A stretch of 64,000 nt of DNA from Kribbella pittospori. Lineage in GTDB: Bacteria; Actinomycetota; Actinomycetes; Propionibacteriales; Kribbellaceae. The notes under the pieces were generated by a model. It worked only from the letters and a program-made list of their open reading frames with translations, was not told the origin of the DNA and did no database searches. The stretch spans positions 62,001 through 126,000 of the forward strand of contig NZ_SJKB01000015.1 of the NCBI RefSeq assembly GCF_004331465.1. The letters run 5' to 3'. The position numbers and the translations under genes are program-made. Numbering within the stretch: the stretch's first letter is position 1; every line of letters begins with the position of its first letter. Positions 25,384-31,426 of this stretch are shown here, one piece after another.

Positions 25384-26319
25384 ATGCGTGAGCCGCCGGA
25401 GGTCGTCTCAGCCGAGGCGGTCCTCGATGCCGTCCGAACGGGCTGGGCGATCGACCTCGACGCGATCGAACATCTGCCGGTCGGGTTCGGCGCGCACCAC
25501 TGGCGGGTCTCGTACGGCGGGATGCCGCGGCTGTTCGTCACGCTCGACAGCCTCGGCCGACGCCACTCGGCGGAGTCGCTCGAGGCTGCTTACGCCGCGG
25601 CGGGCGAGCTGGCCGCGAGCGGACTCGAGTTCGTCGTGGCATCCATACGCAATCGCCAGGGTCACTACACGGCTCCGCTGGCCGGCGGCAGTCTGAGCTG
25701 TGTGCCATGGCTGGACGGCGAACCGGTCGGCTCAGGCGGCATCGACAGCGACCGCCTGGCTCAGCAGAACGCAGAAGCGCTCGCGCGCCTGCACGCCGCC
25801 GCGCCTCCCGCGGGCATCCCGAGCTGGCATCCCCGGGTCGGAGAGGACTTCGGCGACTCCTTGGCCGACCTGCTGCGCAACCCATGGCAGACCGGCCCGT
25901 ACGGCGAACCTGCCCGGACTGCCCTGGCCCAGCGGATCAACGCGATCCGACGCTGGACCGACAGCTACCACGAGCTGGCTCGCCGGGCCGCAGACCATCC
26001 GTGGGTGCCGACGCACGGTGAGCCGCACACCGCCAACCAGCTCGTCACCGATCAGAGGGTTGTCTTCGTCGACTGGGAATCGCTGGCCCAAGCACCGCGG
26101 GAACGTGACGTGGGCACCCTGGTCGACTCCGGATACGCCGAACTGGCCGCTCCGAACTGGGAGATGATCGAGCTGTTCGACCTGGAGTGGCGACTGTCCG
26201 AGCTGGCGGAGTACGCGGACTGGTTCGCCCGGCCGCACACCGCAACCGACAGCGACCGAGTCGCCTTCAACGACCTCACCGTGGAGCTGAACCGACGCGA
26301 CTGGACGCGACCCACCTAG
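25384..26319 (+). CDS. Aminoglycoside phosphotransferase (APH)-like kinase
   Basis: 311 residues. N-lobe with 'IEHLPVGFGAHHWRVSYGG' and 'LFVTLDSLGRR', the catalytic loop as THGEPHTANQL (HGD replaced by HGE, Asn kept), and the metal-binding 'FVDWESLAQAPRERDV' (DWE instead of DFG-type DWD). The HGE change also occurs in spectinomycin-type APH(9) relatives, so activity is plausible. Start could be ATG 25366 or 25384; neither has a clear ribosome site. Its stop shares CTAG with the stop of the convergent ABC gene. The substrate is not necessarily an antibiotic. A broken paralogue lies at 19024-19380. Confidence 0.85.
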   Translation: MREPPEVVSAEAVLDAVRTGWAIDLDAIEHLPVGFGAHHWRVSYGGMPRLFVTLDSLGRRHSAESLEAAYAAAGELAASGLEFVVASIRNRQGHYTAPLAGGSLSCVPWLDGEPVGSGGIDSDRLAQQNAEALARLHAAAPPAGIPSWHPRVGEDFGDSLADLLRNPWQTGPYGEPARTALAQRINAIRRWTDSYHELARRAADHPWVPTHGEPHTANQLVTDQRVVFVDWESLAQAPRERDVGTLVDSGYAELAAPNWEMIELFDLEWRLSELAEYADWFARPHTATDSDRVAFNDLTVELNRRDWTRPT

Positions 26320-28076
26320 TCGTCGGCCTCTGCGTGCCATGACCGCCAGAGTTTGCCGTAGACGCGTCCTGCGCTGACGAGTTCGTCGTGGGTGCCGAGC
26401 TCGACGAGCTCGCCGGCTTCCATGACGGCGATCCTGTCGGCATCGTGCGCGGTCTGAAGGCGATGGGCGATCGCGATCACGGTACGACCCCGCAGTACGG
26501 CGGCCAGCGATTGTTCTGTACGGCGTGCTGTCCTGGGGTCGAGTTGTGCGGTCGCCTCGTCGAGGATCAGGGTGTGCGGATCGGCGAGGACGACTCGTGC
26601 CAGCGAGAGTTGCTGGGCACTGGCTCCGTCGAGGGTGGTGTCGTCGCCGATCTCGGTGTCCAGCCCGTCGGGGAGGTCGTTCAACCACGCGGCTCCGACG
26701 GCGTCCAAGGCGGCGTACAACTCCTTGTCGGTCGCGTTCGGTCGTGCGATCCGCAGGTTGTCGCGCAGCGTGTCGTGGAAAACGTGATGGTCCTGGGTGA
26801 TGAGTACGACGTGTTCGCGCAGCTCGTCGGGCGGCAGGTCGGCAACCGGCGTACCGCCGATGGTCACTGACCCGGTGTGCGGGCGGTCGAGGCCGGCGAG
26901 GAGCCGTGCCAGCGTCGATTTCCCTGCCCCCGAGGTGCCGACGATGGCCAACCGTTCTCCGGGTTGCACCGACAGATCAATTCCGTGCAGCACGTCGCGA
27001 TCCTCGGTGTAGCTGTAGTGAGCGTTGCTCACCTGGATACGGTCGCCGTCCTCGGCGGCGCCGGCGTGCGTGGTTGGCCGGGGTTCCTCGTCGGGGACGT
27101 CGGCCAGACCCTCGACGCGGGCGTAGGAGGCGCCGGCGCCTTGTAGTTGTTCGATCCAGAGCATCAGGGTGTCGAGTGGGCCGACGAGCTGGCGTAGGTA
27201 CACCGTTGCCGTCACGACTACACCGAGGCTGACCACACCATTGGCCTGCAGGGCGCCGCCGACCAGGAGAACTCCGACCACCGGCAGTGCCAGTGACACG
27301 TCTGCCCACGGAAACAGCACCGTTCGCAGCCACAGTGCCCCTAGGCGTGCGGACCGGGCTTGAGTGACGGCGGATTCTGCGGCCTGCGCTCGGCGGTCTC
27401 CCAACCCGAGCAGTTCGATCGTCCGGGCGCCTTTGGCGGTGCTGGCGACGACGTCCGCCAGTTCTGCTCCGGTCGCTGCGACCGCCAGATAGACCGGTCT
27501 GGCACGCCGCAGATACCAGCGCACGGCCGCCGCGACGCCGATCAGGCAGGCGAGCCCACACAGTCCGAGCAACGGATCCAGGACGACCACGGCGACGACG
27601 AGGAACAGGGCGTGGACGAGGGCAACGAGTACCTCGGGTACGGCGTACCGCAAGGTCATGGCCACCACGGATGCGTCGGTGCTTCCGCGGGCGATCAGGT
27701 CGCCGGTGGGCAGATGGTCTGCGACTCGTGGCGGTAGTGCCAGGGTGCGTTTCAGGAAGCGTTCTCGAACACGTGCCGCTGTGCGTTCGCCGAATCGGTA
27801 GCCGATCTTCAGCGCCCACCAGGTCAGGGTTGTCTGCACGATCGTGAACACCAAGGCGCCGAAGGCGAGACGGTCCACCCGGCTGAGCACATCACTGCCG
27901 CCGGCTTGGATCGTGTCGATGATCCGGCCGAGCAACCATGGCCCAACCAGGCCCGCTGCAGCGGCAAGCCCGTTGACACAGACGATCCCGACCACGGCGC
28001 CCCTGTCCGCGCGCAAGTCACGCAGCGCCGCAGCACGGACCTCGCGGGTGCCTGCGATCGGCAGTTGCCTACTCAT
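26316..28076 (-). CDS. ABC exporter half-transporter, ATPase domain with intact Walker motifs but degenerate signature
   Basis: 586 residues: six membrane helices (about residues 30-310), then the ATPase domain. Walker A GTSGAGKST near 380-388, Q-loop LITQDHH, Walker B LILDEAT near 503 and H-loop IAIAHR are intact, but the signature that should read LSGGQ is DGASAQQ. ATG at 28076 with AGGAG upstream overlaps the 3' end of the partner gene by 8 bp. With the partner's intact LSGGQ it would form one complete composite ATP site. Family: type IV exporter (drug, lipid or peptide). No substrate is indicated by the neighbours. Confidence 0.9.
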   Translation of the reverse strand: MSRQLPIAGTREVRAAALRDLRADRGAVVGIVCVNGLAAAAGLVGPWLLGRIIDTIQAGGSDVLSRVDRLAFGALVFTIVQTTLTWWALKIGYRFGERTAARVRERFLKRTLALPPRVADHLPTGDLIARGSTDASVVAMTLRYAVPEVLVALVHALFLVVAVVVLDPLLGLCGLACLIGVAAAVRWYLRRARPVYLAVAATGAELADVVASTAKGARTIELLGLGDRRAQAAESAVTQARSARLGALWLRTVLFPWADVSLALPVVGVLLVGGALQANGVVSLGVVVTATVYLRQLVGPLDTLMLWIEQLQGAGASYARVEGLADVPDEEPRPTTHAGAAEDGDRIQVSNAHYSYTEDRDVLHGIDLSVQPGERLAIVGTSGAGKSTLARLLAGLDRPHTGSVTIGGTPVADLPPDELREHVVLITQDHHVFHDTLRDNLRIARPNATDKELYAALDAVGAAWLNDLPDGLDTEIGDDTTLDGASAQQLSLARVVLADPHTLILDEATAQLDPRTARRTEQSLAAVLRGRTVIAIAHRLQTAHDADRIAVMEAGELVELGTHDELVSAGRVYGKLWRSWHAEADD

Positions 28077-29859
28077 CGTTCTCCTGATCGCCCTGTGCAC
28101 GGGATACCACGTCTCGATAGCCGCGATCGCTGCGCAGGAGTTCGGCGTGTGTCCCGACTGACGACGTCTGACCGTCGACCAGGACGATGACTTCGTCGGC
28201 GCGGTCCAGTACGAGCGGTGACGTCGTGGTGATCACCGTCGTCGAGTCGCGCCGGGCTTCGCGGAGCCGGTCGATCATGGCTGCTTCGGTGTTGGCGTCG
28301 ACCGCGGAGGTGGGTTCGACTGCGAGCAGGACTTCAGGTGCGGCATAGATCGCCCGGGCGAGTTGAATCCGTTGCCGTTGGCCACCAGACAGGTCACTCC
28401 CGCCGGCCGCGATCGACGCGTCCAGACCGCCGGGCAACGCCTCCACGACGTCCTCGGCCACGGCCGCGTGCAGGGCGGCACGGATTCGGACGTCGTCGGG
28501 TTCAAGGCGTCCCGCAACGATGTCGCGGACCGTGCCGGCGAACACCTCGGCGTGGTTGTCGGCGACAACCAGCCGGCGCCTGAACTCGTAGCGGGCAACA
28601 TCATCGATCCGTACGTCGGCCCAGGTCGCACCGGCCTCGGGGTCGGTGCTCAGCTGCCCAAGCCTCTCGACCACAGCGACTGCCTCCGCCGGGCGGGCAG
28701 CGACCAGCGCGGTGAACCGTCCGGGATAAATCACGACGCCCGATCGCGGATCGGCCAATGGGCCTCCGTCAGTGGGAATCACCCCGTCGCGGTCGTTGTC
28801 GCGTGTGACCGGCAGGTTGAGCAGATCGATGATTCGCTGACCGGCCACCCGCGCACGAGCGATGTCACCTCCGCCCTCGATGAAGGCCGACACCGGTACG
28901 ACGAGCACGGCGACGTAGCCGTAGACGGCAACAACGTCTCCGATGCTGATGTCACCGGTCGCAGCCATGCGCGCCGACAGCCACACCACCGCGGCCAGGA
29001 ACAGCGCCGGGAGTCCGGTGGACAGTGCGCCGACCCAACTCGAGGGCCCGGCGACGCGGTAGCCACGATTCACCAGTCCTTGCGAGTCCTGTCCGTACCG
29101 CTCGGCGACAACGCCCTTCCCGCCGAGGCCGTTGAGCACTCGTAGCCCGGCCAGGACATCGACCAGGCGGGTCGTCAGCCGCCCCTGATGCACGCGGTAC
29201 TCGCCGCCGGTGCGCTCGATGCGCTGCAAGAACGGGCCTACTGCGACAGCGAGCAGCGGAACGCCGGCGAGCACGACCGCGGCCAGCAGTGGCGAAATGG
29301 TGAACAGCACGACCGCGACTACGGCGTACGCGACCACCGCGCCGACGCCGGGACCCGTGACAGTCAGCGCCATCGCCACCGTGTACACGTCGGCGATGCC
29401 AACCGTCACCACCTCTCCAGCGCTCACGCGACGCGTCAGAGAGGCGCCCAGGCGGGACGTGTGCCACACCGTTGCCCGGACCGAGCGAAACGATGCGTCC
29501 ATCCGGATCTTGGTCATCGTGCGATGCCGCGCGATCCCCACGAGCGCGTTCAGCACGCTGACCACGAGCAGGAGCAGAGCCCACCAGACGAGGGCGGCCG
29601 TGTCTCCGGCGACAAGTCCGTCATCCACCGCACGGGACAGCACCCACGGTGGCACCGCCAAGCCGACCATCCAGAGGGTGCCCAACAGCGCACCTGTCGC
29701 GACCCGCCGCGACTGCGATCGAGTGAGCCAGAAGAGGAAGCGCCAGGGGCTGGTCAGATCACCGTGTGTCGGCGGGATCCACGTCTCGGTCATCCGGTCC
29801 AGCCAGTGGCGAACGGCAGCCATCCGCCACCTCCGCTGCCGTGCACCGCCGCTGGCCAT
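28069..29859 (-). CDS. ABC exporter half-transporter, ATPase domain lacking Walker A
   Basis: 596 residues with six membrane helices, then an ATPase domain. Where Walker A belongs the sequence is 'FTALVAARPAEAVAVVERL', with no GxxGxGK(S/T). The Q-loop Gln is lost (VVADNHAEVF), Walker B is LLAVEPTSAVD (catalytic Asp/Glu pair changed to VE) and the H-loop His is Ser (TTTSPL). The signature LSGGQRQRIQLAR is perfect. It therefore probably cannot hydrolyse ATP itself but completes the partner's site. Start ATG 29859 chosen for a GAGGA upstream; further in-frame ATGs at 29823 and 29793 are possible. Gene order and overlap indicate an obligate heterodimer with 26316-28076. Confidence 0.88.
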   Translation of the reverse strand: MASGGARQRRWRMAAVRHWLDRMTETWIPPTHGDLTSPWRFLFWLTRSQSRRVATGALLGTLWMVGLAVPPWVLSRAVDDGLVAGDTAALVWWALLLLVVSVLNALVGIARHRTMTKIRMDASFRSVRATVWHTSRLGASLTRRVSAGEVVTVGIADVYTVAMALTVTGPGVGAVVAYAVVAVVLFTISPLLAAVVLAGVPLLAVAVGPFLQRIERTGGEYRVHQGRLTTRLVDVLAGLRVLNGLGGKGVVAERYGQDSQGLVNRGYRVAGPSSWVGALSTGLPALFLAAVVWLSARMAATGDISIGDVVAVYGYVAVLVVPVSAFIEGGGDIARARVAGQRIIDLLNLPVTRDNDRDGVIPTDGGPLADPRSGVVIYPGRFTALVAARPAEAVAVVERLGQLSTDPEAGATWADVRIDDVARYEFRRRLVVADNHAEVFAGTVRDIVAGRLEPDDVRIRAALHAAVAEDVVEALPGGLDASIAAGGSDLSGGQRQRIQLARAIYAAPEVLLAVEPTSAVDANTEAAMIDRLREARRDSTTVITTTSPLVLDRADEVIVLVDGQTSSVGTHAELLRSDRGYRDVVSRAQGDQENDE

Positions 29860-29898: not shown

Positions 29899-29920
29899 AT
29901 TTGTGATTCGATTCACAAAT
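29899..29920. promoter_or_regulatory. CRP-type palindrome upstream of the ABC exporter
   Basis: Perfect 8-bp inverted arms around six bases; the core is TGTGA-TTCGAT-TCACA at 29902-29917, the CRP/FNR-family consensus used by actinobacterial Crp/GlxR. It lies 40-60 bp upstream of the ABC start at 29859 and about 160 bp upstream of the gene at 30079. Confidence 0.55.
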
Positions 29921-30711: not shown

Positions 30712-30763
30712 GGTTCTGTATTTGCACTGGTGGGGGTCGCACCGGGGTGAAAGGCTGGGTGGG

Positions 30764-31426
30764 GTGAGGACCTACGGGCAGTACTGCCCGATCGCGCGGG
30801 CGTCCGAACTGCTGGCCGAGCGCTGGTCGTTCATCATCCTGCGCAACATCGTGCTGATCGGCTGCCGGACCTTCAACGAGATCGCCGACGGCGCTCCTGG
30901 GTTGTCTCGTGGCCTGCTGTCCAAGCGGTTGCGGGATCTGGAACGCGCCGGCGTACTCGAGATCCGTCCGAAGCCCGGCGGTCCGGGCTCGACGTACGAG
31001 CCGACGCAAGCGGGCCGGGAGCTGTCGGAGGTCATGCTGGCTCTGCAGCACTGGGGATCGCAGTGGGCGGAGCTGACACCCGAGCACGCGCATCCGGGCA
31101 TCGTGCTGTGGGGCTTCGTGAACAGCCACCTCGATCGCGGCCGGCTTCCCGACCGCCGGGTCCTGGTCCGGTTCGACTACGCGACGCTGTCGGGGCCGGG
31201 CAGCCGCGGCTGGCTGCTGATCGAGCGTGGCGACGCTGAGATCTGCGAGAGGCACCCCGGCGGAGAAGAAGATCTGGTGGTCGTGGTGAGCGATCCGGTG
31301 GCGTTCGCTCGCTGGGATCTCGGAGAGCTCGAGTGGGGCGACGCCTTGCGGTGCGGGGCGATCGAGGTTCGTGGACCGCGCGCGCTGGCGCGGGCACTCC
31401 CCACCTGGAAGCGCCGCGTCGACTGA
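30764..31426 (+). CDS. HxlR-family winged-helix transcriptional regulator
   Basis: 220 residues, GTG start. The HxlR core at 1-105: 'QYCPIARASELLAERWSFIILRNIV' with the conserved Cys, 'GLSRGLLSKRLRDLERAGVLE' recognition helix, 'YEPTQAGRELSEVMLALQHWG' wing and dimer helix. A C-terminal SCP2-like half (PDRRVLVRFDYATLSG...) is common in actinobacterial members and may bind a ligand. HxlR proteins often sense redox or electrophiles and control neighbouring oxidoreductases; the flavin monooxygenase 70 bp downstream on the same strand is the obvious candidate target. Confidence 0.88.
   Translation: MRTYGQYCPIARASELLAERWSFIILRNIVLIGCRTFNEIADGAPGLSRGLLSKRLRDLERAGVLEIRPKPGGPGSTYEPTQAGRELSEVMLALQHWGSQWAELTPEHAHPGIVLWGFVNSHLDRGRLPDRRVLVRFDYATLSGPGSRGWLLIERGDAEICERHPGGEEDLVVVVSDPVAFARWDLGELEWGDALRCGAIEVRGPRALARALPTWKRRVD

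Follow-up and report, generated by a model that had tools for sequence, protein, structure and literature searches.

A half-exporter pair of Kribbella pittospori and its actinobacterial relatives probably form ABC exporters with a single working ATP site

Can an ABC exporter operate on one nucleotide per cycle? The question is made testable by a family of half-exporter pairs in which the P-loop and the A-loop of one ATP site are gone, and a member of this family lies in the Kribbella pittospori DNA analysed here (a stretch of 64,000 nucleotides, hereafter the window, to which coordinates refer unless otherwise stated). The source is a 9.5 Mb genome, its nearest relative among those fetched being K. 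capetownensis YM53. The two genes, which we call A and B, are the following.

28069 to 29859, minus strand: subunit A, half ABC exporter with transmembrane domain (TMD) and nucleotide-binding domain (NBD), 596 amino acids, PF00664 and PF00005
26316 to 28076, minus strand: subunit B, half ABC exporter with TMD and NBD, 586 amino acids, PF00664 and PF00005

The initial annotation had the coordinates of both reading frames right and their strand wrong, since both lie on the minus strand and the plus-strand translations are full of stops. The operon runs A then B, and the last 8 bp of A are shared with B. The reading frame of A can reach an upstream GTG at 29916; conserved homology begins at about residues 5-20, so that the ATG at 29859 or that at 29823 is the likelier start. 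Pfam matches (ABC_membrane and ABC_tran) and AF2 monomer models agree that each protein joins a TMD to an NBD in the exporter fold. The models (pLDDT 87 for A and 83 for B) score Z values of 27-31 to known exporters and keep the full type IV fold in both chains.

In an ABC dimer the ATPase domains are arranged head-to-tail, each site being composed of the Walker side of one chain and the signature and D-loop of the other. The motifs of A are distributed as follows.

28675 to 28701, minus strand: Walker A position of A, AARPAEAVA (residues 387-395), motif absent by sequence and alignment
28369 to 28392, minus strand: intact signature of A, LSGGQRQR (residues 490-497), attributed to the live site
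28297 to 28329, minus strand: Walker B equivalent LLAVEP and intact D-loop TSAVD of A (residues 511-521)
28219 to 28221, minus strand: H-loop position of A, Ser547 for His, within a conserved TTSP motif

A was initially described as having lost Walker A, the Q-loop glutamine and the H-loop histidine while retaining a perfect LSGGQRQR, and on all these points the description is accurate: the Q-loop glutamine is replaced in VADNHAEVF and the H-loop region reads ITTTSP, with serine where histidine is expected. The reported loss of the Walker B DE pair stands for the aspartate (Val514 in LLAVEPTSAVD) and falls for the glutamate at the catalytic position, which is kept (Glu515). The loss of Walker A involves more than substitution. 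Between the end of the TMD and Walker A there are 41 residues in A versus 56 in B, and the about 15 residues gone from A correspond to the stretch in which B has its A-loop. The match of A to ABC_tran begins at profile position 37, beyond Walker A, and a profile of A set against human-mouse ABCB1 opens the same gap, with "sarpeeaaa" aligned under the ABCB1 Walker A. No conserved basic residue substitutes for the Walker lysine. In the model of A, strand 382-387 is followed by two residues and then a helix, leaving no room for a P-loop. Retention of Walker A in the degenerate subunit, which is usual in characterised cases but not definitional, is thus not seen in Kribbella A. The corresponding motifs of B are these.

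26913 to 26939, minus strand: intact Walker A of B, GTSGAGKST (residues 380-388)
26610 to 26633, minus strand: replaced signature of B, LDGASAQQ (residues 482-489)
26556 to 26561, minus strand: Walker B Asp506-Glu507 of B (LILDE)
26463 to 26465, minus strand: H-loop His538 of B

With the Q-loop glutamine (Gln428) also present, B is as first annotated, having Walker A, Q-loop, Walker B and H-loop and no LSGGQ. By sequence, one composite site is therefore complete and the other catalytically impaired. In the head-to-tail geometry, ATP would be held by B through its Walker A and B motifs, A-loop, Q-loop and H-loop, with the LSGGQRQR signature and the D-loop of A clamping it. The other composite site, formed by the Walker side of A and the signature side of B, would have no P-loop, A-loop, Q-loop glutamine, H-loop histidine or LSGGQ, and from sequence and model it likely holds no nucleotide. 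We put at roughly 0.78 the probability that A and B constitute a stand-alone type IV ABC exporter, heterodimeric and with a single working ATP site, which is the best overall explanation.

The distribution of the paired loss among relatives bears directly on this reading. Orthologs of A with 70-95% identity occur in about 20 of 24 other genomes of the genus, and two more have relatives at 48-49%. From public genomes 45 actinobacterial loci were retrieved, and in nearly all of them an A-B pair stands in this order; wherever both genes are covered the order is identical, and the overlap is usually 1-8 bp. The genera include Kribbella, Jiangella, Microlunatus, Kutzneria, Saccharothrix, Streptomonospora, Streptomyces, Nonomuraea and Streptosporangium, among others. 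All A copies legible at the motifs are without Walker A and all have SGGQ, save the distant L087 (SGGE), while the legible B copies keep Walker A, DE and the histidine and show xxAQQ-, RVQQ- or AQH-like letters for LSGGQ. The paired loss is likewise seen in two paralogous pairs of the same genome (on C68 and C2) and in distant pairs of 27-40% identity. One distant A copy (L086) keeps the Walker B DE and has lost Walker A and the histidine; distant B copies have lost the D-loop too (EATAEAG), a loss that we would assign, by the known head-to-tail geometry, to the dead site.

The script that sorted A from B used the motifs themselves, setting aside 24 ORFs or domains (other ABC proteins, partners cut at locus ends and one fusion); the motif-free tests are a profile search and the trees. 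The profile search covered 396 genomes, all of Actinomycetota, and left a score gap of 440 versus 357 bits, with 27 genomes above it, including other classes of the phylum. Every A-type locus fetched (L106-L132 and L134) is without Walker A and has LSGGQ, and the B partners that are legible have Walker A. Of the three loci fetched from just below the gap, L134 is a truncated A-type, and L133 and L135 belong to the ordinary DD-type exporters and have Walker A intact. The NCBIfam model for TetA at E <= 1e-90, too strict a cut-off, matched none of 296 genomes. The same paired loss, which the initial annotation had proposed to look for in related genomes, is thus present in the relatives legible at the motifs and in the loci selected by profile, and a search for the opposite, orthologs with Walker A in A or LSGGQ in B, found none. 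Since the pattern is fixed across the clade, it is not a chance occurrence. Sequencing error or local decay is ruled out, for the 95%-identical K. capetownensis ortholog and all other relatives show it.

The phylogenetic analysis gives a concordant picture. In a full-length tree of 64 rows, A (29 rows) and B (24 rows) each form one clade with 100/100 support, and ordinary degenerate exporters fall outside both. The split is recovered from the membrane domain alone (100 SH-aLRT), so it was not created by the NBD motifs. The distance matrices of A and B mirror one another (r = 0.973; none of 10000 permutations as high). Given these clades and mirrored distances, the simplest reading is that the clade ancestor had already lost the Walker A, Q-loop and H-loop residues in A and LSGGQ in B. 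This large actinobacterial clade would thus have started out with the paired loss, which is not peculiar to this genome, the Kribbella locus being an ordinary member.

Site-by-site conservation follows the assignment of residues to the two sites. The mean top-residue frequency in A is 0.94 for the signature and 0.91 for the D-loop, versus 0.49 at the Walker A position; in B it is 0.91 for Walker A and 0.86 for the H-loop, versus 0.65 at the signature position. Residues given to the live site are near-fixed, and those given to the dead site are free or replaced. The NBDs of both subunits are under purifying selection (dN/dS of about 0.04-0.23), somewhat looser in A. That A might be a decaying pseudo-subunit, with B serving another partner or the operon degenerating, could be read from three genomes (L028, L037 and L081) where A is split over at least two frames and the adjoining B is open, through either real decay or assembly error. 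This explanation is extremely improbable, however, since the NBD of A evolves at a dN/dS of 0.10-0.23 with invariant signature and D-loop columns, A and B co-occur and co-evolve, and a homodimer of B, having no signature of its own, could not form a canonical site. A gene remnant was also found in Promicromonospora panici (L080:5034-6179), where a single ORF fuses residues 16-187 of A in frame with residues 381-585 of B, it seems through an internal deletion across the operon.

Motifs, gene pair, co-phylogeny and conservation thus agree with the initial proposal of one complete composite site and one destroyed on both sides. In the single-site exporter that we favour, the ATPase domain of A would be retained as signature donor and structural partner. 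From the sequences we infer that A and B form a heterodimer with a stoichiometry of one ATP: with one working site, the binding and hydrolysis of a single ATP in each cycle would drive the inward/outward switch. At the dead site, protein-protein contact would take the place of the ATP "glue". The TTSP motif of A, with serine in 100% and proline in 93% of 29 relatives, together with Gln488 of B, suggests that the dead interface has been preserved for its role as a contact.

Pumps of similar design provide the context in which this reading must be judged. TM287/288, BmrCD, TmrAB and MsRv1273c/72c share the fold of A-B and have one degenerate site. By phmmer, A resembles TM287 and B resembles TM288, with the asymmetry in the same direction; the best bacterial sequence matches to solved structures are TM288 and BmrC (288 bits, below ABCB1), and the sequence search found no solved structure from the A-B clade itself. 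Unlike A, the degenerate subunit of MsRv1273c/72c keeps Walker A and the A-loop, and ATP is found at both sites (PMC12038006). A review of degenerate sites holds that they keep ATP, perhaps as a permanent glue, calls their function unclear and names neither TetAB nor any actinobacterial case (PMC7756269). In the fungal Pdr5/PDR subfamily, as in A-B, one site is altered in all motifs on both sides and the other is intact; Pdr5 differs in its inverted domain order, its single chain and in having point substitutions only. Its deviant site, with a Lys-to-Cys Walker A, Asn for Glu and an LNVEQ signature, still binds ATP (PMC8421411, PMC7756269).

The Pdr5 case is a ground for supposing that the degenerate site of A-B binds ATP or another nucleotide non-canonically, or holds it as a permanent glue as in TM287/288 and MsRv1273c/72c. 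The retention of Glu515 (glutamate is commonest in this column, in 68% of the 29 relatives), of the surrounding EPTSAVD and of the strongly conserved TTSP indicates, moreover, that the Walker face of A cannot decay freely and could have a ligand. We nevertheless consider such binding unlikely, given that what Kribbella A has lost is not single residues but the glycine-rich loop in its entirety, along with the A-loop strands, that no basic residue replaces the lysine, and that the P-loop segment is itself missing from TetA (see below). If the dead site is instead a purely structural contact, "ATP as permanent glue" would probably be inapplicable. Because the described degenerate sites of MsRv1273c/72c and Pdr5 still bind ATP, the A-B clade belongs to a known kind, of which it is an extreme and under-described variant: a description of exporters without Walker A in one subunit was not found in the literature searched, which took in few subscription papers. 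The initial view that the pair is more extreme than the usual asymmetric exporters, where the characterised cases keep nucleotide at that site, is thus upheld. OmrDE of Ornithinimicrobium, considered as a candidate, proved to be of the ordinary degenerate type, Walker A being reported as conserved in both subunits (PMC11109279).

A reported drug exporter does belong to the family. TetAB is described, in passages of PMC4384142 (citing Tauch 1999) and PMC8304765, as a heterodimeric tetracycline exporter also giving oxacillin resistance in C. glutamicum. Its sequence (TexAB) was fetched and translated from Corynebacterium striatum plasmid pTP10 (NC_004939.1). Like Kribbella A-B, it consists of adjacent half-exporters and shows the double loss. 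In TetA the Walker A segment, the Q-loop glutamine and the H-loop histidine are missing and LSGGQRQR is intact, its Walker B reading DD versus VE in Kribbella A; TetB has GTSGAGKST, DE and AHRL, with PPEVEQQ for LSGGQ and a lost D-loop (EATAEAG). TetA falls inside the A clade and TetB inside the B clade, on long branches that leave their exact place unsure, and so at least one pump of this architecture is reported to work. The architecture is fixed across Actinomycetota, TetAB included. On balance, we lean toward the broader proposition that a widespread actinobacterial exporter clade runs on a single ATP site, with no second nucleotide, one ATP per cycle and contact in place of glue. The kinship is deep, however: TetA, the shorter protein, is 29% identical to Kribbella A over the aligned part, and TetB is 43% identical to Kribbella B in the NBD. 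Transfer of substrate from TetAB is accordingly weak, tetracyclines and oxacillin being the substrates reported for TetAB; by analogy, Kribbella A-B probably exports a drug or some other toxic amphiphile. RamA/RamB (SapB export) and StrV/StrW are, we presume, further candidates for named relatives; no useful literature on RamA/RamB in this role was found.

Genomic context gives no clue to cargo, since the flanks differ across species and, by crude gene calls, the pair alone is kept. Such unconserved neighbours would also suit a regulatory or sensor ABC pair, acting in signalling or ion gating with no net transport. We regard this as very improbable, as A and B both have the full type IV exporter fold in the models and the family member TetAB is reported, in the passages cited above, to export drugs. 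An APH-type phosphotransferase gene (PF01636; 25366-26319, plus strand) is convergent with B and overlaps its end by 4 bp; it was not seen as a conserved neighbour in other species. On the other side, less than 1 kb past the operon start, lies an HxlR-type regulator gene (30722-31426, plus strand), possibly linked to A-B, followed by a flavin monooxygenase-like gene. The intervening region contains one further feature.

29899 to 29920, no strand assigned: operator-like inverted repeat ATTTGTGATTCGATTCACAAAT just upstream of A, with TTGTGA-N6-TCACAA at 29901-29918

This repeat is absent from every shuffle of the window and recurs upstream of A in about 10 Kribbella loci, with fixed arms, a free spacer and differing flanking genes. 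The genome has a single further exact copy, at C22:732274, flanked by a short gene and a gene for a membrane protein, and the core TGTGA-N6-TCACA, which we take to be a putative CRP-type site of the textbook form, occurs at 13 places. A different arrangement is found in Streptomyces-like loci (L057, L067 and L107-L112), where one or two ABC exporter genes of a different type, with an SAGQRQL signature and an intact Walker A, stand immediately before A-B, giving three or four half-exporters in a row.
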